From Candidatus Aegiribacteria sp. MLS_C (GTDB taxonomy: Bacteria; Fermentibacterota; Fermentibacteria; Fermentibacterales; JCC-6), in the NCBI GenBank assembly GCA_002030045.1, contig LQBI01000016.1:1-16448 (forward strand): a stretch of 16,448 bases of DNA. Direction: 5' to 3'. The position numbers were made by a program, and so were the translations under genes. Every line of letters begins with the position of its first letter. The stretch's first letter is position 1. This document shows positions 3,297 through 15,138 of the stretch, one piece after another. Below the pieces are notes generated by a model. The model made no database searches. It saw only the letters and a program-made list of their open reading frames with translations, and had not been told where the DNA came from.

Positions 3297-3632
3297 CTAA
3301 GCTTCAGTTTTAATTCTTTCAGTTCGAACATCTTCGAACTGATTGATCAGAACTTCTCCCTCCGGGAAAGATGAAACTATCTTCAAGGATGCTCCCATTG
3401 CTGAAAGAATTCCACGCAGTGTACTTATGAACATATCTGACTGATGCTCCATTTTTGAAATGGCTGCTTGATTCACTCTCAGTTTCCTAGCCAGCTCTAT
3501 CTGAGTCATGTCAAGTGCTTTTCTTATGTCTCGAATCTCCATTTCCAATAGATGTTCTCTTGTTCGTTCTTCAGCTTTCTTCTGAGCCTCTGGAGACATT
3601 TTAGCCACCAGATCTCTAAAAGGCTTAGCCAT
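3297..3632 (-). CDS. XRE-family antitoxin of a HigBA-like toxin-antitoxin pair
   Basis: The product is a DNA-binding antitoxin or repressor of about 111 residues. The N-terminal helix (MAKPFRDLVAKMSPEAQ) is typical of antitoxins paired with Gp49-like HigB toxins. The helix-turn-helix follows at roughly 33-66 (RKALDMTQIELARKL, then VNQAAISKMEHQSD), and the tail GASLKIVSSFPEGEVLINQF is the usual C-terminal strand of this group. Such proteins bind their own promoter and neutralise the toxin. I chose the ATG at 3632 because the family usually begins at M(x)xFxDL. In-frame ATGs at 3647, 3662 and 3686 would add 5-18 basic residues, and the ribosome binding sites do not settle the choice. It follows the toxin remnant directly (toxin stop at 3697), in the toxin-first order normal for HigBA. 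Because the toxin is truncated, this may now be an orphan regulator. Confidence 0.85.
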   Translation of the reverse strand: MAKPFRDLVAKMSPEAQKKAEERTREHLLEMEIRDIRKALDMTQIELARKLRVNQAAISKMEHQSDMFISTLRGILSAMGASLKIVSSFPEGEVLINQFEDVRTERIKTEA

Positions 3633-3696
3633 TTTCCCTCGCCTCATTCCTTTCTGGTCCATCTTCCTTTGTTTTCCTTCTAGCATTTCTACTCAC

Positions 3697-3981
3697 TTAA
3701 GTTCTTTCTTCCCTTTCTATTTCAGCTAAATGAGTATCATATATCTTGTCAGCTCTTGGTACAAAGATGTCATACCATCTATCATCACCTGCTTTATTTC
3801 CACCTATCAAGAGGATTGCTGTCCTTCTTGGGTCGAAAGCATACAATACTCTATAGGGATCACCAGCATACTGGATACGTAGTTCCCTCATATGAGAGTG
3901 TTTCGGCTGGTTCGGGCCGTTATCGAACAGCTCAAGTGAGCTTTCAATGCTGTATCCGATTGCCTTGTAGGCCTTTTCGGT
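3697..3981 (-). pseudogene. 5'-truncated HigB/Gp49-like (RelE superfamily) toxin
   Basis: From an ATG at 3891 a 64-residue protein can be read. It contains the family core MRELRIQY, AGDPYRVLYAFDPRRTAILLIG, GGNKAGDDRWY and the C-terminal helix DTHLAEIE. Known members are about 100-120 residues and act as ribosome-dependent mRNA interferases. Reading the same frame upstream past the ATG gives recognisable family sequence (KAYKAIGYSIESSLELFDNGPN, then KHSHMRELR) back to a TAA at 3982-3984, with no standard start codon among those 30 residues. So the N-terminal strand and start are missing, and the segment before KHSHMRELR also looks about 10 residues shorter than usual. I infer a decayed, probably inactive toxin. 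It could still be expressed from a non-standard start such as ATT or ATC, or as the short 64-residue form. Confidence 0.72.
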
Positions 3982-4010
3982 TTATACTTATTGACAATTC
4001 TTACTTGCGC

Positions 4011-5125: not shown

Positions 5126-5358
5126 TCACCTTCCCGCTCTGATTACGGTTGCTAAGTCGCTTTTCGAAGTAGTTGACTTTGACAAAGAATACTTGTTACC
5201 ACGCCCGGTGCCAATCGCTCCAGAATTCCATCCTCGTAGAACATTTTGAGGATTCTGTAAGCAGTGGCCCCTGGTATGCCCAGCCGCTGAATCAAACGCG
5301 AGACCGAGACGGACGCAGGATTCACTCTCTGTCGGGGAACGGGTCTGCCACTCAACAA
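5126..5358 (-). pseudogene. Frameshifted winged-helix DNA-binding fragment
   Basis: One minus-strand frame from about 5358 reads SVSRLIQRLGIPGATAYRIL and then KMFYEDGILER, a clear helix-turn-helix plus recognition helix of the winged type. It then loses sense. A shift of one frame at about 5215 restores a plausible wing, TGRGNKYSLSK, ending at TGA 5126-5128. This dGILER-x-GrGxxYxL layout is what winged-helix tails in GntR-type, Fic-type or AlbA-type proteins look like. An in-frame stop lies just upstream of 5358, so the rest of the ancestral protein is gone. I read it as the decayed C-terminal end of a regulator or Fic-like protein; the family assignment is uncertain. Confidence 0.4.
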
Positions 5359-5418: not shown

Positions 5419-5432
5419 GTGATATCATGTGA
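5419..5432 (+). promoter_or_regulatory. Strong Shine-Dalgarno followed by a start-stop (ATG-TGA)
   Basis: GGAGG at 5415-5419 is followed at normal spacing by ATG 5427-5429 and immediately by TGA 5430-5432. The frame is the same one that continues open into the XRE-phosphatase gene. It is either a minimal upstream ORF on a longer transcript or a nonsense change at codon 2 of an older start. Confidence 0.35.
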
Positions 5433-5489
5433 TATCACTATTGGCACCCATACGGGTTGACAAGCTCGAATACATATCAAATGATATCA
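5420..5489. promoter_or_regulatory. Three TGATATCA palindromes: probable operator of the partner-switch operon
   Basis: The perfect 8-base palindrome TGATATCA occurs at 5420-5427, 5430-5437 and 5482-5489. Centre-to-centre spacings are 10 and 52 bases, close to one and five helical turns, so the sites would lie on one face of the DNA. The third copy overlaps the predicted -10 region and ends four bases before the ATG at 5493. The downstream gene begins with an XRE helix-turn-helix, so autoregulation is the natural inference. Confidence 0.5.
5457..5485 (+). promoter_or_regulatory. Putative promoter of the XRE-phosphatase-kinase operon
   Basis: A consensus TTGACA at 5457-5462 lies 17 bases before AATGAT (5480-5485, 4 of 6 to TATAAT). 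Transcription would begin at about the ATG at 5493, giving a leaderless or nearly leaderless message, in keeping with the absence of a ribosome binding site before that ATG. The TTG of the -35 is in frame with the gene, so an automatic caller may use it as the start. Confidence 0.45.
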
Positions 5490-5492
5490 ATC

Positions 5493-6779
5493 ATGATAAG
5501 AGTGAATGACATCAAGAGACTCAGAATCGACAGAGCTCTTACTCAGTCGGAGCTTGCGGATATGGTGGGGTGTGCCCAGTCAACGATTTCCATGATTGAG
5601 TCGGGAAGATACCATCCTTCCGACCTGCTGTTATCAAAAATAGCGAAGGCCCTTTCTTTAGAATCCCAACCCAGGCATGAGGTGGCAGGACTTCAACTCG
5701 ATTTCGCTTTTCCAGAGACCAGCTATCATGGTTCTCTTCCCATCAGAGTAAGCTCCTGGAAACGACCTGAGATATCCGGGGATTTCAACATGGTTCTGCC
5801 GACATCTGACAAGTCCGCACTTCTCATAGTGGCTGATATTGCCGGGCACGGATCAAGTGCATTCCCCAAAGCGGTTTATCTAGCAGGCTGGATAAAGGGA
5901 CACATCGGAAAATCATCCCAGCTCATTCGCCTCGATGTTCTTGCTCAGGAGATCGGTGAGGTGGCAGAAGACCTCGGTACTGCGCTTTCCTGTTATCTTG
6001 CTCAGTTCACTCAGATTGCTGGTAACCGCCACACAATCTCCTATGAGGGGGTGTCCTGCGGATTTCCACCCCCATTACTTCTGACAGGAATTCCCATTCG
6101 AACACTTGAAAGTGCATACCTGAACTCTTCCCTGCCTATGTTCACGTCACGGAAGGTTGAAGTTGTCAACCACGAAATAACCGCCCCGTGGCAACTGGTG
6201 GTATCTACTGATGGTCTACTGACTCGGCTTGGATCAGGAAACGAGAATGATGGGAAGAGGGAACTGCTGAGACTGATGACAAACAGCAAAAGAGAAAACG
6301 CACCCGGAGTTATCATGAAGACTGATATTCCTCCCACGGATGATGAGTCGCTTGTTATTACCAGGTGGAATGCCTGGGATAGGGAATCCACCTTCGATCT
6401 CGATGACATGGGAAGTCTTGAGTTCTTCTATGACATAGCAGAAAAAACAGCTTCGGAACTCCTTGGAGAGGAACCTGCGATACAAATTATCCAGGCTGCA
6501 ATTGAAGCTGTGGATAACGCAAGACGGCATGCATATCATGGAAATTCGGGGCTTGTAACCATGAGATTGCGCAGTACTCGAGAATCGTTCTGCATCGAAG
6601 TTGAGGACAGGGGAAAGAACAACATCCCACAGGCCGAAGTACTGCGATCACAGAATGGTTTCGCAATCATGCGGGCGTATACCGACAGCCTGGACGTACG
6701 ACAAGCCGTCTCAGGCGGGACCATTGTCACATTGAACGTAAGAGTGCGGAACGGAAAGGAGAATGGGACCAATGAATGA
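5493..6779 (+). CDS. XRE DNA-binding / SpoIIE-like PP2C phosphatase / RsbW-like HATPase fusion regulator
   Basis: This 428-residue signalling protein has three domains, numbered from the ATG at 5493. Residues 4-58 are an XRE helix-turn-helix (LRIDRALTQSELADMVGCAQ). Residues about 75-295 are a SpoIIE-type PP2C phosphatase with its metal-binding and core motifs: SGDF (Asp97), VADIAGHG (Asp115), the strand GVSCGFPPPLLL, STDGLL (Asp240) and TDDES (Asp283-284). Residues about 305-420 are a GHKL/HATPase_c domain of the RsbW anti-sigma kinase type: N-box IEAVDNARRHAYHG (Glu338, Asn342), EDRG (Asp372, Gly374), QNGFAIM and GGTIVTLN. In partner switching, RsbW phosphorylates a STAS protein and a PP2C reverses this; here both activities plus a DNA-binding output share one chain. 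The next gene encodes a STAS protein. A TTG start at 5457 would add 12 residues but coincides with the -35 box. No membrane segment or separate sensor domain is seen. Confidence 0.88.
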   Translation: MIRVNDIKRLRIDRALTQSELADMVGCAQSTISMIESGRYHPSDLLLSKIAKALSLESQPRHEVAGLQLDFAFPETSYHGSLPIRVSSWKRPEISGDFNMVLPTSDKSALLIVADIAGHGSSAFPKAVYLAGWIKGHIGKSSQLIRLDVLAQEIGEVAEDLGTALSCYLAQFTQIAGNRHTISYEGVSCGFPPPLLLTGIPIRTLESAYLNSSLPMFTSRKVEVVNHEITAPWQLVVSTDGLLTRLGSGNENDGKRELLRLMTNSKRENAPGVIMKTDIPPTDDESLVITRWNAWDRESTFDLDDMGSLEFFYDIAEKTASELLGEEPAIQIIQAAIEAVDNARRHAYHGNSGLVTMRLRSTRESFCIEVEDRGKNNIPQAEVLRSQNGFAIMRAYTDSLDVRQAVSGGTIVTLNVRVRNGKENGTNE

Positions 6780-7095
6780 TCTGGCACCCTACGCTATTGA
6801 AGTCGAAGAACCGGGCGTGGTCTTGATCAGATTCCGTTCAGGACGGTGTAGTTCCCGACGAATGAATAAGCATGAGGTTGAGATTGCCGAGCTTGTAAGA
6901 TCCAATGAAACTGTAAAGTACGATCTATCCGATACGACTGCTATCGGAAGTGCGTGGATAAAATGGATGGTGAAAATGACCTTGATGGCCAGGAGAATGG
7001 GCAAAGAGGTCTTGTGTGTCGGCATGTCTGATAGTATCCGGAGCATGAGTGAGGTCATAGGGGTACTCGACGATCTGAATTTCGAGCAGAAGTGA
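6772..7095 (+). CDS. STAS-domain protein, RsbV/SpoIIAA-like antagonist
   Basis: This protein of about 107 residues fits a single STAS domain. VLIRFRSGR is the first strand; VKYDLSDTTAIGSAWIKWMV covers the strand-loop-helix holding the phospho-acceptor; VLCVGMSDSIRSMSEVIGVL is the late strand-helix; the tail is DDLNF. Ser60 in AIGSAW sits where RsbV-type proteins carry the serine phosphorylated by RsbW (usual form DSSGL). The rest of that motif is divergent (Gly for Asp, Ala for Ser, Trp for Gly), which lowers certainty that it is phosphorylated. The ATG at 6772 overlaps the previous gene's stop (ATGAATGA), with AAAGGAG about ten bases upstream, indicating translational coupling. An ATG at 6763 is possible but too close to that site. 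I infer that it is the substrate of the fused kinase/phosphatase and switches that protein's DNA binding or another target. Confidence 0.82.
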   Translation: MNDLAPYAIEVEEPGVVLIRFRSGRCSSRRMNKHEVEIAELVRSNETVKYDLSDTTAIGSAWIKWMVKMTLMARRMGKEVLCVGMSDSIRSMSEVIGVLDDLNFEQK

Positions 7096-7105
7096 GTAAA
7101 ACCTG

Positions 7106-8038
7106 ATGAAAGTTGCGATTTGGGGAGCGGGTACTATCGGCAAAGCTCTCGCCCACAGATTGGCTACAACTGATTTTATCTCTGAATTGCATTGGATCAA
7201 TAGAGACCTAAACAAGATTCAATCGAGATCTACCGATATTGAACATGGGCTGCTGTTTGCACCAGTGTGCCGACGTGTTACAACAGCCTCTCAGAAATCA
7301 GCATCAGAGGTTTTTGATGAAGTTGACATGGCTATACTTACGCAAGGTTACCCGGTGGCTCAGGGAGATACCAGAGACGATGTCTATATTCGCAATCGGG
7401 AAATCTTCCGAGAGTTCGTAATTCCATCACTCTCCGGGAAATCCATGCCGATTGTGCTTGTGATTACGAATCCTGTTGATCATCTCACAAGGTTGCTATA
7501 CCGTGAAACTGATCTGGGCAGTTCGAGGCTTATGGGGCTTGGCACGGTCGTTGATACTGCTCGTCTTTGTCACAGCATCTCAGGATACGTATCACCTATG
7601 CCTTACCCGAGGGATATATGGGCATACGCTGTTGGTTTTCATAATGAAGATGTTGCGGTAACGATTCCGAGGATGTGTGCAATGGGAAGGGAGTTTCCTC
7701 CTGATCTGCTTGAAGATATCAAGCGACTTGTTCAAATTGAGATCGCCAATGGGGCAAACAGGGTCAAGCAGGCAACGGATGAGGCTACACTTCATCCTGT
7801 CATTGAAGGTGCCGTCCATGTCATGAAGAGCATAGCCCTCGATATGTGTTCTGTTCTGACAGTCTCTGTTCATGATCCAGATTCTTCTAACGACCTTTTC
7901 TATTCAGTGCCATGTACCATTGGTAATCAAGGTATCCTGGAGAGACTGGACAACCTCATTCCAGCTGATACCAAGGACTCTATGAGATTGGGGATCGAGA
8001 ACGCTATCAGATTTCTCCACTCTTGCGGGGACGCATAA
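7106..8038 (+). CDS. Lactate/malate dehydrogenase-fold 2-hydroxyacid dehydrogenase, atypical
   Basis: The 310-residue length is normal for the LDH/MDH superfamily. The Rossmann motif GAGTIG is at 7-12, Arg90 in GDTR matches the mobile-loop arginine, NPVD is at 122-125, Asp150 and Arg153 in VVDTAR match the catalytic Asp and carboxylate-binding Arg, and His179 in GFHNED matches the catalytic His. All acid-base and substrate-clamping residues are therefore present. Two positions differ: the end of strand 2 reads INRD (Asn32-Arg33) where NAD enzymes have Asp, suggesting NADP or altered nucleotide binding, and the specificity position (Gln in LDH, Arg in MDH) is Val84. The GEHG motif is GFHN. It starts 10 bases after the STAS gene without a strong ribosome binding site, so it is probably co-transcribed. 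Role inferred: a redox or 2-oxoacid enzyme or sensor linked to the partner switch. Confidence 0.85.
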   Translation: MKVAIWGAGTIGKALAHRLATTDFISELHWINRDLNKIQSRSTDIEHGLLFAPVCRRVTTASQKSASEVFDEVDMAILTQGYPVAQGDTRDDVYIRNREIFREFVIPSLSGKSMPIVLVITNPVDHLTRLLYRETDLGSSRLMGLGTVVDTARLCHSISGYVSPMPYPRDIWAYAVGFHNEDVAVTIPRMCAMGREFPPDLLEDIKRLVQIEIANGANRVKQATDEATLHPVIEGAVHVMKSIALDMCSVLTVSVHDPDSSNDLFYSVPCTIGNQGILERLDNLIPADTKDSMRLGIENAIRFLHSCGDA

Positions 8039-8144
8039 TCGCTTGCCTGGAGCTTCTTCCTTCCTGTACCGGGCGGGTGTTATTGTATGATCCTGCAGTT
8101 GAATATGGAGAGCGCTGTTGTACCATTCTGGAAGCGGAGGGGTT

Positions 8145-9812: not shown

Positions 9813-10814
9813 TCAGCTGTTACTCGCTTCCTGTACCAATTCCTTAACGCGGGGATCTGATCTGCCATAGCTCACGATGGACACGTCCAGATCAGTGTTC
9901 CTGCAGAGGTTCAGAGCTCGGTGAATCGACCCTGTGATCCAATCGGTTTCATTGCCAAAGGCTCCTCCGCCCAGCAGCGTAAGGAAAACTCTATTGCTGC
10001 CGTTGCTTCCCGCATTCAATACCGCTGCACAGAGTGTTGCCTCGTAGGATGAATCCAGTACAAGCCTGGCGAAGTCAGCCCAGAGTTCCGATGAATGCCG
10101 CGAACAGGCAACAGGCAGTGCGGAGCAGTAGGCTTGGGAAACCAGGTGGGTACAGTTGTCCAGCGTTACCTGCGTATTCCACTGAATGCCGATTCGCAGC
10201 TTTTGGCGAATTCTGTCTATTTCTTCCTCGCTTGAAGATTCAAGACGTTTGGCAATTTCCATCAGTCCATTGCGGGATGGCATCGCATAGCCGTTGATCA
10301 TCTTCCACAGTTGCTTCCTGGAGTTTCCTAAAGCTGCTCCGATATCTGCCAGGCAATCGATCTGGTTGTTCGCTGATTGGCCTGTCTGTCCATTTACATC
10401 CGCAAAATAGTTCCGGTAGATCGTTCCGGCGCCAGCGGCGATGGCGCATGCGGGACCCTGGGTATGATCATGCTCGTAGATACCAACTCCCTTTTCAGGT
10501 ATGACATTCGAAGAGACCATCTCAAGGAGGTTGAACTGGGAAGCCACCTGAAAGAGCGCTGCTGCGTTCGATTCGTCCATGTGCAGATGCTGGACATCGG
10601 CAACCACTTCACGGACGGATAGCCTTCCATGCCTTTTCACACAGGACCTGGAACGTTCTCTCAACTCACCCAGGGAAGGTATCTCCAGTTCACCGCAAAT
10701 CCATGCTTTTCCATTTATGTGTGACTTCAGAGAACTTCCGTCAACGGACAGATTCGCTCGAACCTGCTGCGGGGATTCCTCGGTGAAGCCGGTCAGTTTT
10801 TCAAACCAGTTCAT
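9813..10814 (-). CDS. Conserved macro-domain-like protein (putative ADP-ribose-binding)
   Basis: This 333-residue protein has no signal peptide. It belongs to a conserved family I recognise by its blocks rather than by an assigned activity: LTGFTEESPQQVR at 7-19, FQVASQFNLLEMV at 88-100, HTQGPACAIAAGAGTIYRNYF at 117-137 (quoted in part), NNQID, VSQAYCSALPVA near 225-236, and LTLLGGGAFGN at 278-288 followed by DVSIVSYG. The C-terminal LLGGGAFGN segment with its flanking strands resembles the ligand loop of macro domains, which bind or hydrolyse ADP-ribose, but the canonical PARG glutamate motif is not obvious, so enzymatic activity is an inference. Start: ATG 10814, with GAGGATC lying rather far upstream. 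It lies downstream of the serpin on the same strand, separated by a strong inverted repeat. Its 5' end is duplicated ahead of the chitosanase gene. Confidence 0.75.
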   Translation of the reverse strand: MNWFEKLTGFTEESPQQVRANLSVDGSSLKSHINGKAWICGELEIPSLGELRERSRSCVKRHGRLSVREVVADVQHLHMDESNAAALFQVASQFNLLEMVSSNVIPEKGVGIYEHDHTQGPACAIAAGAGTIYRNYFADVNGQTGQSANNQIDCLADIGAALGNSRKQLWKMINGYAMPSRNGLMEIAKRLESSSEEEIDRIRQKLRIGIQWNTQVTLDNCTHLVSQAYCSALPVACSRHSSELWADFARLVLDSSYEATLCAAVLNAGSNGSNRVFLTLLGGGAFGNETDWITGSIHRALNLCRNTDLDVSIVSYGRSDPRVKELVQEASNS

Positions 10815-10955: not shown

Positions 10956-12209
10956 TCACGCCGACGGGTCCGTCACCCTTCCCATGAAGAGTATCGAGCC
11001 CGTCTGTCTGTCCATTATGAGGAACATGAAGGGGCGGTCGATGTTCATCTGTACCGGTGTGGGAGGCATGCTTTCGATGGCCATTACGACGGCGGTGGCC
11101 GCTGCCGCTTCGGTTCCCGATTCATCGACTTTCACGAATGCCTTGTGGACCACGGCCGAGATGAAGAGGTCGGGTATTCCAGTGAAACCGCTGAAATCAG
11201 CATCTTCCGAGAAAGCCGACGGCATCCCCATGTCCTTCAGTATGTCACTCAGGGCCATGCTTCTCGTGAACTCGAACCCGGGCATCGCGAGGGCCACGTT
11301 CCGGCTTGTCATCCCTGACCTGATGGCGCTTATGAGGTCGGCGTCCAGCTCCGCCTCCAGGTCCTCCAGGCTGCCGTCGGGAAGTAGTATCAGCATTGAT
11401 GCCGTTCCTTCCGCGTAGTCCATCTCGATAGCCGAGCATCCCTCAGTTGACGCGTACCTGAAGAACTCCGTCTGACTCATCATGGGCACGGTAACAGAAC
11501 TGCCATCCTGGAGGTAGAAGCTGCCGTCCCCGGTGCTGGACTCCTCGAAGGGGTTCTGCCAGCTGGCCTTGAAGTATACGGCGTTGGTGAGGATGACCCT
11601 TGTGTCAGGAGTAATCACGCCCTGTGGAAGCAGGTTCTGAATCCTCTCCGCTGTCTTCTGGGCCACCCACTGGTTGATGGCGGTTCTTGAACCCTCCGGG
11701 TCTCCCATGAAGTCCAGGTTCCTGACGGCCGCGTCGAAACTTGATTCTACCCTTTCAACGTAGTCCCGCAGGAGGCTGAAGCCGTCCTGCACCCAGAGGC
11801 CGTTGGCTATGGCAAGGGTGAAGGGTTCGCCCCTCCGGGCACCTGCAACGTCCCCTGAGCTGAGCCTGTCCGTCAGTGAGCCGAATGCCCTGCAGACGGC
11901 ATCCGTCGGGAGCGTGAAATGAAGGACTCTGGCCATCTCATCGGCAGTCTCACCGGCGGCCCCCGCCCAGGTCATTCCCAGGGCGGCCGATATGCTGAAC
12001 GGGGAGAAGAAGACATTATCATCGCCCGCATTGTCCCGGGCTTTCAGATATAGCTCCACGGCGAACTGGTTGTTGCCTGCGACCAGCTGCCCGACGATGG
12101 ATGCATCATCACCCTGCGAAGTCTGCTGATCAACCGCCTGGGCTGCGGATACAGCTGCCAGGACCAGCAGAATGATAATGCTCATCGAGAGTTTCGCCGC
12201 GTCCCTCAT
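10956..12209 (-). CDS. Secreted serpin (serine protease inhibitor)
   Basis: This is a 417-residue serpin with a Sec signal peptide (MRDAAKLSMSIIILLVLAAVSAAQA). Family blocks in order: NVFFSPFSISAALGMTWAGA (about 65-84), NGLWVQ, ILTNAVYFKASWQNPF, the hinge DESGTEAAAATAVV, and the C-terminal NIDRPFMFLI and GSILFMGRV. The alanine-rich hinge beginning at Gly365 is of the inhibitory type that can insert into sheet A. Counting 15 residues from that glycine puts P1 at Glu379 and P1' at Ser380 (AIE/SM), so a glutamate-specific or unusual protease is the likely target; an error of one residue would make P1 Ile or Ser. The ATG at 12209 follows AGGAGG with a 7-base gap; the ATG at 12236 is out of position. 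It probably protects the cell surface from secreted proteases, its own or foreign. Confidence 0.95.
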   Translation of the reverse strand: MRDAAKLSMSIIILLVLAAVSAAQAVDQQTSQGDDASIVGQLVAGNNQFAVELYLKARDNAGDDNVFFSPFSISAALGMTWAGAAGETADEMARVLHFTLPTDAVCRAFGSLTDRLSSGDVAGARRGEPFTLAIANGLWVQDGFSLLRDYVERVESSFDAAVRNLDFMGDPEGSRTAINQWVAQKTAERIQNLLPQGVITPDTRVILTNAVYFKASWQNPFEESSTGDGSFYLQDGSSVTVPMMSQTEFFRYASTEGCSAIEMDYAEGTASMLILLPDGSLEDLEAELDADLISAIRSGMTSRNVALAMPGFEFTRSMALSDILKDMGMPSAFSEDADFSGFTGIPDLFISAVVHKAFVKVDESGTEAAAATAVVMAIESMPPTPVQMNIDRPFMFLIMDRQTGSILFMGRVTDPSA

Positions 12210-12866
12210 TTGTCTTCCTCCTGTGGGTTGTGTCATGACTGTTACATAGCCGCCGGAAGATTATTCCTCAAGTCTTCCTTCGGGCATGGGACCGGGCGAC
12301 TGGAGATGGTACTACTAGTTACAATTCCTGGGGCAGGTAACGTTCGATCCTCTCGCCACAGCGTGACATGACACATGCTGACACGGCTGGTATTGCCGTC
12401 ATGACGGTAGAAAACCACTGCCATGGACGGTGAGCGTCCGAGCCGGGTGGACATTCAGCATTCATGTAACGGTAAACCGGATGGTCTGGGAAGCCTTGGG
12501 TCGAAGTGCCTTCGAAGAGCCGCGTCGCATATGGCGCAGACCCAGTTCACAAGTGCCATTCTCGTGGAGGATCCTTGTCTCCTGGACCTGGCGGGTATGT
12601 TAGCAGGTGCCGGGCCTGTTCCTCCCCTGCCGGATGGGTCATACTGGAGGGTGGAGGCCACTCAGGCAGTTCCAACTCCGGACAGCATGATTTGAGTGAC
12701 CGGTAATAGGACTTCATCCCTCTGTTTGCGATAGTCGGTTCTACACAGGCTGGTCATGCCCTCAGAACGATGTCGAGTGATATGCCTTTACATCTTTACA
12801 AATGTTGTCAGGAATAAGGTTGTTTTTATTACAATCATTGTTATGTTCAGGGGGAAGGAGACTGGT
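12210..12866. other. Intergenic stretch between divergent serpin and ATPase genes
   Basis: No gene is certain here. A plus-strand frame at 12423-12695 could encode 90 residues (ILVEDPCLLDLAGMLAGAG, then PLPDGSYWRVE) with neighbour-like codons, but it has no ribosome binding site or recognised family. An overlapping minus frame is no better. A perfect 12-base palindrome CCGTCATGACGG lies at 12396-12407, of a size expected by chance a few times in a window this long. The last 90 bases turn AT-rich and hold the ATPase promoter. Confidence 0.45.
12805..12832 (+). promoter_or_regulatory. Putative promoter of the AAA ATPase gene
   Basis: TTGTCA (12805-12810) and TATTAC (12827-12832) are separated by 16 bases in a locally AT-rich stretch that contrasts with the GC-rich surroundings. 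Transcription would begin about 30 bases before the ATG at 12867. Confidence 0.4.
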
Positions 12867-14210
12867 ATGTTCCAGAGGGATATCGTCGAGTACCTGGGCA
12901 GATGGCACGGGAGCAGATTCCGGAAGCCTCTTCTTCTGAGAGGGGCAAGGCAATGCGGCAAGACTTCCGCGGTCCGACTGTTCGCCGGTGGAATGCCCGG
13001 CTACATGGAGGTCAACCTGGAGGCGCCCGGTGAGAAGGACCTTTTCAGGAGAGGTCTTTCCGCAAGAGAGCTCCTTAGCGCTCTCAAGCTGTCCAGGGGC
13101 ATAACTGCCGCCACGAGCGAATCGATCCTCTTCATGGACGAGATCCAGGAGTCTCCGGACGCGATCGGATACCTCCGCTTCCTGGCGGAAGAGATACCTG
13201 AGCTGGCGGTCATCGCCTCCGGATCCCTGCTCGAGCTTTACCTGGCGGACATGAACCTGGAATTCCCGGTGGGAAGACTTGAACATGCATTCATGTACCC
13301 GGTTTCCTTCGAGGAGTACCTGAGGGCCATCGGGCGGGACGACATGCTCGAGGTGATCGATGAGGTTCCGATTCCCTCTTATTCGATACCGGTGATATAC
13401 AGGGAATTCGTGAAATACTCGATCCTGGGAGGAATGCCGGAGATACTCAGGGCAAAACTTGCGGGAGCCGAACTGGAGGACCTTACCACCATCTACTCAT
13501 CCCTTATGATCTCCTTCCTCGATGACGTGCCGAAGTATGCATCGAACCGCACAATGGCAGGAGTCATCAGACACTGCCTGGAAACGGCTCCTTCGGAGAC
13601 GGGGAACAGGATAACCTATGCGGGTTTCGGAGGGTCATCCTACAGGTCCAGAGAAGTGGGAGAGGCTCTCAGGATGCTTGAAAAGGCACTGCTTATCCAT
13701 CTGGCCTACGCCTCGGGAAGCGTTGCCCCTCCCATAAGGGAGAACAGACGGAAATCCCCCAAGCTGCTCTTCATAGATTCCGGACTGCTGATGCACCTGC
13801 TCGGGGCGCAGTGGGAAAACCTGGGGATCGATGATCTCAACTCCGCTTTCAGAGGCGCTCTGGCCGAGCAGTGTATCGGGCAGAGCATCGCCGCAGCCCG
13901 AAGGACCGACTTCCCCGCCCTGCGATTCTGGACAAGGGACAAGCGAGGCTCCAGCGCGGAGGTGGATTTCCTGATACAGCACGATGAGAGGGTGATACCG
14001 ATCGAAGTCAAATCCGGTGCTACCGGAAGACTGCGATCGATCCATCGCTTCATTGAAGACTCCGATCAGGACATCGCGGTCAGGTTCTACAATGGCGCCG
14101 TAGAGGTCGATACCCTGAGGACACAGTCCGGCAGGGAGTTCAGACTGCTGAACCTGCCGCATTTTCTGGCGGGTCGTCTACACGATTACCTGGACTGGCT
14201 GATCGGATAG
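12867..14210 (+). CDS. AAA_14/DUF4143-family ATPase
   Basis: This 447-residue P-loop ATPase is numbered from the ATG at 12867. Walker A is RGARQCGKTS (25-34, Lys32), Walker B ILFMDEIQ (87-94), a sensor-like ASGSLLEL (117-124), then GRLEHAFMYPVSFEEYL. These are hallmarks of the family whose usual Walker A is RGPRQVGKTT. The C-terminal DUF4143 region includes LLFIDSGLLMHLL and a PD-(D/E)xK-like core, AEVDFL (Asp367 region) and IPIEVKSG (about 378-385), so a nuclease-like fold with possibly retained catalytic residues is visible. These proteins are abundant, often single-gene and mobile in bacteria and archaea; their cellular role is unsettled. AAGGAG six bases upstream fixes the ATG at 12867; the longer starts back to 12756 read through the promoter. 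It converges with the chitosanase gene, 16 bases apart. Confidence 0.9.
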   Translation: MFQRDIVEYLGRWHGSRFRKPLLLRGARQCGKTSAVRLFAGGMPGYMEVNLEAPGEKDLFRRGLSARELLSALKLSRGITAATSESILFMDEIQESPDAIGYLRFLAEEIPELAVIASGSLLELYLADMNLEFPVGRLEHAFMYPVSFEEYLRAIGRDDMLEVIDEVPIPSYSIPVIYREFVKYSILGGMPEILRAKLAGAELEDLTTIYSSLMISFLDDVPKYASNRTMAGVIRHCLETAPSETGNRITYAGFGGSSYRSREVGEALRMLEKALLIHLAYASGSVAPPIRENRRKSPKLLFIDSGLLMHLLGAQWENLGIDDLNSAFRGALAEQCIGQSIAAARRTDFPALRFWTRDKRGSSAEVDFLIQHDERVIPIEVKSGATGRLRSIHRFIEDSDQDIAVRFYNGAVEVDTLRTQSGREFRLLNLPHFLAGRLHDYLDWLIG

Positions 14211-14226: not shown

Positions 14227-15054
14227 TCATGGCAGTACTCCCGTTCCGGTAACGGTGAAGGAATCCCCGTAGCAGGTGACATCGAAGGGCGCTTCGAGGG
14301 AATGGTTGCCCGTCTGCAGGAGACGCCGGAACATATCTATGCGGTCGATGCTCTCCTTCCAGGCCGTATTCCGGGACAACACGGCCTCCCTTTCATCCAG
14401 GAAGCATGACAGCCAGAGGATCTCGTCCACGCCTTCGCGGGGAGAGCCACCCAGAGCGGCACTGGTCCGTTCCGCGATCCCGGCCATGCCATCCTGCCCC
14501 ATCTGTATGCAGGCATCGAAGAGCTGGGCCAGCGTGACGTTGTGCCGGACGCCCAGGCTCCGGGCCAGGTCCAGGGCGGGTGTCCAGTACATCCCGTCCA
14601 TGACATCGATCTGGGATTGTTTGAAAAAAGCGTCGTCCAGAGGAGCCCGGAAGTCTTCCATGAAACCCTCCAGCCCCGCCACATCATCGCTCATGCCACC
14701 CGGATGCGGCCCCGCATCGATGGCGTCCATGGCGGGGATGTACTCTGCAAGCCGGTTGGACGGGTCCAGCGAGGTGTAGTGGTGCAGCCAGATGCTGCCA
14801 TCGAAGGTTCCGGTGGTGAACCCGACCATGCCGAAGGTTATGCCGCGTCCGTCGCCGATGTCCTCGGCGTAGTCGAAGACCGGGATCGTCCGGCTGTTCT
14901 CTGCGACAGCCACCAGGCTGAGCATCACGGACTTCTCGTGCCGGTCCGGACTGATGTCCCCCGGGCAGGCGGTTCCGCCGACGCCTGGACCTCCGAATCC
15001 AGAAGAGAGCAGTAAGACGCAGGCGAATACCGCCCCGTTGACAAGGGAAGTCAT
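14227..15054 (-). CDS. Secreted GH46 chitosanase
   Basis: This 275-residue enzyme should hydrolyse beta-1,4 linkages of chitosan outside the cytoplasm. Numbered from the ATG at 15054: a signal peptide (MTSLVNGAVFACVLLLSSGFGG), VAENS with Glu52 as predicted general acid, DIGDGRG with Asp68 as predicted second catalytic residue, ITFGMVGFTTGTFDG, YTSLDPSNRLAEYIPAMDA, FKQSQ, YWTPALDLARSLGV, LFDACIQMGQDG and EILWLSCFLDER. These follow the order of classical GH46 enzymes such as that of Streptomyces N174, with a short C-terminal extension (CYGDSFTVTGTGVLP). GAAGG seven bases upstream supports this ATG. The reading frame continues upstream to an ATG at 15138, but those 28 codons are a copy of the macro-like gene's 5' end and lack a ribosome binding site. 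Chitosanases are patchily distributed, so acquisition by transfer is plausible. Confidence 0.9.
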   Translation of the reverse strand: MTSLVNGAVFACVLLLSSGFGGPGVGGTACPGDISPDRHEKSVMLSLVAVAENSRTIPVFDYAEDIGDGRGITFGMVGFTTGTFDGSIWLHHYTSLDPSNRLAEYIPAMDAIDAGPHPGGMSDDVAGLEGFMEDFRAPLDDAFFKQSQIDVMDGMYWTPALDLARSLGVRHNVTLAQLFDACIQMGQDGMAGIAERTSAALGGSPREGVDEILWLSCFLDEREAVLSRNTAWKESIDRIDMFRRLLQTGNHSLEAPFDVTCYGDSFTVTGTGVLP

Positions 15055-15138
15055 TTCATTGCCTTCGACGGTGATCTTTGACCGAACCTGCCGGGGGGAC
15101 TCCTCGGGGAATCCGGTCAGTGCCTCAGACCACATCAT
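15019..15138 (-). repeat. Duplicated 5' end of the macro-like gene, fused in frame to the chitosanase
   Basis: Translation from the ATG at 15138 gives WSEALTGFPEESPRQVR, against WFEKLTGFTEESPQQVR at the start of the macro-like gene (10814 downward). The similarity continues more weakly: VEGNEMTSLVNGAVFAC against VDGSSLKSHINGKAWIC. The DNA is also clearly alike (for example GAGGAATCCCC/GAGGAGTCCCC). So the chitosanase signal-peptide region appears to lie on, or be derived from, a truncated second copy of that gene. The edges of the match are approximate. Confidence 0.65.

Follow-up and report, generated by a model that had tools for sequence, protein, structure and literature searches.

What does a partner switch control when its kinase and phosphatase are fused to a DNA-binding domain and no sigma factor is encoded beside them? 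In the RsbU/RsbW/RsbV-SigB and SpoIIE/SpoIIAB/SpoIIAA-SigF systems, the components are separate proteins and the released partner is a sigma factor. We analyzed a 16,448-nucleotide stretch of contig LQBI01000016.1 of Candidatus Aegiribacteria sp. MLS_C (hereafter, the window) in which an operon has the same three biochemical domains as those systems but lacks a sigma gene. Its kinase and phosphatase are in one chain with an XRE-type helix-turn-helix (HTH), and its other two genes encode a STAS protein and a protein with the fold of lactate and malate dehydrogenases (LDH/MDH). The evidence leans, if modestly, toward a self-contained and autoregulated partner-switch operon.

Domain architecture of the fusion protein

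The first gene of the operon (positions 5493..6779, + strand) encodes a fusion of an XRE HTH, a PP2C/SpoIIE phosphatase, and an RsbW/SpoIIAB-type HATPase. Pfam matches to a Cro/C1-type HTH_3 DNA-binding domain (5511..5657; E = 1.6e-13), a SpoIIE-type PP2C phosphatase domain (5766..6368; E = 7.2e-8), and a SpoIIAB/RsbW-like HATPase_c_2 kinase domain (6450..6734; E = 2.2e-11), all on the + strand, exceed curated cut-offs. The scan was done on the 440-aa open reading frame (ORF) at 5457–6779, which is open from a TTG at 5457, and residues of the fusion are numbered from that codon. Only one protein homologous to the fusion over its whole length was found; it is encoded in G016, a second genome of Candidatus Aegiribacteria, the genus of the window (34% identity; E = 1.4e-74). 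In the alignment of these two proteins, the metal-binding residues D109, D127, D252, and D295/D296 of the PP2C domain are common to both copies, as are E350/N354/H358 of the kinase N-box and D384-x-G386. Because the two copies are strongly diverged, residues that are invariant between them are informative, and the three domains named in an earlier, sequence-only reading of this DNA are borne out. The window copy has a degraded form of the glycine-rich nucleotide motif of the kinase (DRGKN, vs. DNGRGG in G016). The best PDB sequence match of the kinase domain is SpoIIAB, a weak match; a search of PDB sequences with just the PP2C domain yielded no meaningful match, and the AlphaFold model of the fusion is unusable (pLDDT 45).

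The Pfam scan found no PAS, GAF, or receiver domain in the operon, nor a sensor domain of another kind. As the sequence-only reading also had it, no ORF in the operon encodes a sigma factor, judging from the list of window ORFs and a Pfam scan of ten window proteins. Only the HTH touches Sigma70_r4, weakly and below cut-off.

The STAS protein and its candidate phospho-acceptor

The second gene (6772..7095, + strand) overlaps the stop of the fusion gene by 8 nt and encodes a STAS-domain protein. By sequence, this gene is divergent and its similarity to STAS is weak: the Pfam STAS match of the window protein has an E-value of 0.016, below the curated cut-off. The earlier assignment nevertheless stands, as the G016 orthologue matches STAS_2 at 2e-5, and the PDB matches of a two-sequence STAS profile are nearly all STAS proteins, with TM1442 at the top. 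An AlphaFold model of the STAS protein, one good model among five, has a pLDDT of 71, and SpoIIAA is the best PDB match of the predicted fold.

With the start at ATG 6772, the candidate acceptor is numbered Ser60, as previously proposed; it is codon 63 when counted from the ATG at 6763. In alignments, Ser60 falls at the position of the phospho-serine of TM1442 and at that of the first Ser of MDSSG in the STAS protein of a conventional switch encoded by the host, and G016 has Thr at this position. The surroundings are noncanonical (G-S-A-W / P-T-E-L vs. D-S-S-G), with the canonical Asp and Gly absent. The divergent context of the phospho-site, together with the degraded nucleotide motif in the window copy, would suit a system in which phosphorylation plays little part: the kinase and phosphatase domains would serve chiefly as structure, and the repressor would be controlled allosterically by STAS binding alone. 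We consider this very unlikely because two copies with only 34% identity have the PP2C aspartates and the kinase N-box in common and retain Ser/Thr at the acceptor position. Partner switching through Ser60/Thr of the STAS protein is the likely reading of these residues.

The conventional switch of the host (G000:C7:66646-67026 and 69901-70554; L063 and L002) consists of a STAS protein with MDSSGLG followed directly by a 149-aa RsbW-like kinase. Near it, a 1207-aa open frame weakly resembles the fusion in the PP2C region. Cross-talk between the conventional switch and the operon is possible.

Promoter and paired operator-like sites

Two palindromic, operator-like sites of 16 bp are located upstream of the fusion gene. 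Site 1 (GATATCATGTGATATC; 5421..5436) is inside a 20-bp palindrome at 5419–5438 and occurs without mismatch nowhere else in the 2.98 Mb genome, and site 2 (CATATCAAATGATATC; 5473..5488) is the sole match with one mismatch. The pair flanks a −35-like TTGACA (5457..5462, + strand), which is separated by a 17-nt spacer from a weak −10-like AATGAT (5480..5485, + strand); the two hexamers score 10/12. In both the window and G016, the palindromes are spaced by exactly 52 bp and site 2 covers the −10 region. Relative to the ATG, the pair starts at −72/−20 in the window and −74/−22 in G016, and TTGACA is at −36 and −37, respectively. The palindromes themselves differ, with GATATC-N4-GATATC in the window and AATATT-N4-AATATT in G016. 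None of 2,000 dinucleotide shuffles matched the score of the pair, for the window or for G016. A change in sequence at fixed geometry and location is the pattern that a co-evolving regulator/operator pair gives.

The location of the promoter bears on where translation begins. The sequence-only reading had placed the start of the fusion at 5420/5457. Homology to G016, whose fusion has an N-terminus in agreement, and the position of the promoter argue instead for ATG 5493. Since the promoter is so close, with the −10 hexamer only a few bases before this ATG, the transcript is predicted to have little or no leader. At the other end of the operon, a terminator-like site at 8063–8077, 3′ of the last gene, is not above chance.

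In each of the two whole genomes, the only operator matches with one mismatch or fewer are the two sites of the operon itself. We rejected a wider regulon, as sites with two mismatches in the genome of the window number 9 versus 18 expected under a second-order Markov model and are mostly inside ORFs. Because operator-like sites are confined to the operon's own promoter in each genome, the fused DNA-binding domain is most likely a dedicated autorepressor rather than the outward output of the switch, and the earlier proposal that this domain is a general output is doubtful.

The dehydrogenase-like protein

The third gene (7106..8038, + strand) begins 10 bases past the stop of the STAS gene, and its product has the dehydrogenase fold read earlier from the sequence (Ldh_1_N, E = 9.3e-22, Pfam). 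It has a Rossmann GxGxxG motif, and both copies keep GAGxIG, Arg90, Asn122, Arg153, His179, Thr228, and a TxHPVIEG motif. The catalytic residues Arg109, Asp168, Arg171, and His195 of LDH numbering correspond to Arg90, Asp150, Arg153, and His179 of the window protein. Asp150 is replaced by Glu in G016. The specificity position 102, which is Gln for lactate and Arg for malate, is Val84 in both copies and thus neither lactate- nor malate-like. The N-R pair after beta-2 (WINRD) hints at NADP(H), judging from the family.

Across 42 genomes of the small phylum Fermentibacterota, the Ldh_1_N profile is matched in two, which are exactly the two carriers of the fusion; among control genomes, 13 of 14 have a match. 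This distribution rules out that the gene is a stray from core metabolism. In this phylum, the dehydrogenase-like protein is thus no part of core metabolism and travels with the switch.

The protein could be the sensor of the system, with occupancy by NAD(P)(H) or a 2-hydroxyacid setting the balance between PP2C and kinase, and with transcription via the fused repressor as the sole output. In its favor, a sensor domain is found nowhere else in the operon. The Rossmann motif and the catalytic Arg, His, and Thr are kept, yet both copies have Val at the substrate-selecting position and G016 has Glu in place of the catalytic Asp. Ligand binding may outweigh turnover because of these two substitutions. 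However, the operator is at this promoter only, so a purely transcriptional output would govern nothing but the module, and we regard this version of the system as somewhat unlikely. The LDH-like protein is probably either a switched target or a sensor; these are the two leading readings, and they are not separable. Going by co-occurrence, which is the sole basis for the link, the STAS protein and the dehydrogenase may be partners.

Distribution and genomic context

G016 has the same three-gene order with equally tight packing, and identities between the copies are 34%, 30%, and 40% for the fusion, STAS, and dehydrogenase, respectively. The fusion is present in 2 of 42 genomes of the phylum and 2 of 19 of the genus. 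A profile search of 385 genomes recovered both known copies alone, with none in the ∼340 sampled genomes beyond the phylum. Scans with single sequences of genome contigs, viral contigs, plasmids, and phages found no copy of the fusion beyond the genus, and a two-sequence profile of the fusion matched the G016 copy and, beyond it, HTHs only. Conservation of the STAS and LDH neighbors, which the sequence-only reading had proposed to check in unrelated genomes, is seen within one genus, in G016 at 30–40% identity; no copy was found in the ∼340 genomes sampled or, in the contig, plasmid, and phage scans, beyond the genus. The comparison is of two copies from one genus, both in draft metagenome-assembled genomes.

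That the known carriers are metagenome-assembled genomes only could point to chance adjacency or an artefact of annotation or assembly. This is hardly credible given G016, an independent and highly diverged copy in which the fusion, the order of the genes, and the geometry of the promoter all recur. The presence of the three genes in G016 and the restriction of the LDH/MDH family to genomes with the fusion indicate a conserved module rather than a chance neighborhood. Comparison of the two copies establishes a conserved three-gene unit with private, paired sites that are predicted to be operators.

The neighborhood of the operon is unlike between the two genomes, and the downstream flanking gene is in a different neighborhood in the relative examined. 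The operon has a lower GC content than the genes just downstream. In G016, the operon (L010 168-2957) is near an antitoxin, a Phd/PIN toxin-antitoxin pair, and a DDE transposase. With these toxin-antitoxin and transposase genes, both copies are in mobile-looking neighborhoods.

Such surroundings raise the possibility that the operon is an accessory or mobile element akin to toxin-antitoxin or defense cassettes, in which the XRE domain autoregulates and the STAS/dehydrogenase pair, on release, hits the host or invaders. The patchy distribution in 2 of 19 genus genomes, the neighborhood that differs in each genome, the neighbors of toxin-antitoxin, transposase, and DUF4143-ATPase type, the autoregulated XRE architecture, and the GC content relative to downstream genes are all in keeping with a cassette. 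We nonetheless consider it unlikely, as PADLOC matched it to a generic HTH only and to nothing else of defense, no copy is on the plasmids, phages, or viral contigs scanned, and no known toxin fold is present.

The window has several other features. A HigBA-like pair is on the − strand at 3297–3990, where an HTH_37 antitoxin (3297–3686) follows a Gp49-like toxin ORF without an obvious intact 5′ end. Also on the − strand, and immediately upstream of the operon, is what is left of an IclR-type HTH, a short stretch bounded by stops at either end (5150–5310). Two − strand genes (9813–10814 and 14227–15138) encode otherwise unlike proteins that share an N-terminus (MNWFEKLTGFTEESPQQVR and MMWSEALTGFPEESPRQVR). 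Beyond this N-terminus, a Pfam scan assigns the second protein to glycosyl hydrolase family 46; the arrangement looks as though a duplicated 5′ end had been fused to a chitosanase. Between them are a gene whose translation, inspected by eye, resembles a secreted serpin (10956–12236, − strand), and one for an AAA_14/DUF4143 ATPase (12756–14210) that matches the PADLOC candidate PDC-S01 at 2.3e-150.

Comparison with known partner switches

The view that classical switches use separate proteins and release a sigma factor, from which the sequence-only reading had set out, is too strict. SypE and Rv1364c are fused, and SypA, SiaC, and HsbA belong to published switches without a sigma-factor output. 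SypE of Vibrio fischeri is a single-chain kinase/phosphatase that acts on the STAS protein SypA, and its output is not a sigma factor. As in the operon, an RsbW-like serine kinase and a PP2C phosphatase are in one protein and the STAS partner is co-encoded. SypE differs in having a receiver between its domains, the order kinase-REC-phosphatase, and no DNA-binding domain, and the SypE-SypA system has neither a dehydrogenase nor autorepression via a fused HTH. Rv1364c of Mycobacterium tuberculosis combines sensor, PP2C, GHKL, and STAS in one chain. As in the fusion, a GHKL kinase comes after a PP2C domain and the domain acted on is an anti-sigma-antagonist (STAS) domain, but Rv1364c has an N-terminal sensor instead of the HTH, carries the STAS domain in the same chain, and is tied to SigF.

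In the SiaABC-SiaD and HptB-HsbR-HsbA-HsbD systems of Pseudomonas aeruginosa, a STAS-like protein controls a diguanylate cyclase rather than a sigma factor. SiaABCD resembles the operon in having an enzyme encoded together with the switch, and it is by analogy that we propose STAS-like control of an enzyme here. Unlike the operon, the Sia and Hsb systems use separate proteins and a different enzyme, have no fused DNA-binding domain, and in the former, SiaA is a membrane-linked phosphatase. TciR of Vogesella indigofera and related REC-RsbW proteins also fuse an RsbW-like kinase domain to a regulatory domain, with a receiver in place of the HTH, no PP2C, and, for TciR, no STAS partner in its genome. 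HsbR, too, is a receiver-linked regulator. No description of an XRE-PP2C-HATPase fusion, or of a switch fused to its own XRE repressor, was found in the open-access full-text literature, which is weak evidence of absence; databases may well contain the architecture, though undescribed.

A model for the switch

More tentatively than the autoregulated operon itself, we propose that the kinase/phosphatase chain is the repressor, that docking of the STAS protein sets XRE binding with no sigma factor involved, and that the LDH-fold protein is a metabolite or redox sensor or a switched enzyme. In the autoregulated-operon reading, which we favor, the fusion would bind both sites cooperatively on the same face of the DNA, as 52 bp is about five helical turns, and would repress its own operon, since site 2 covers the −10 region. 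The kinase domain is predicted to phosphorylate the STAS protein on Ser60, or on Thr in the G016 copy, and the PP2C domain would oppose it by removing the phosphate. Docking of unphosphorylated STAS protein on the kinase domain would shift the repressor between states, and STAS protein that is not docked would engage a target. The most economical target would be the co-encoded LDH-fold enzyme, by analogy to SiaABC-SiaD and HsbA-HsbD, and the cofactor or substrate state of the dehydrogenase is a candidate signal. Because the operator is private and the DNA-binding domain looks like feedback control, an outward effect is likeliest through the STAS protein or the dehydrogenase.

Because the paired operators differ in sequence, are identical in geometry, and are confined to each copy, the DNA-binding half of this model is directly testable in vitro with three small proteins. 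Should the proposed steps prove correct, a single chain would link partner switching directly to a DNA-binding repressor, and the operon would be a minimal switch that functions without a sigma factor. An LDH/MDH fold would then be a dedicated signaling partner in a phylum in which 40 of 42 genomes lack the family.
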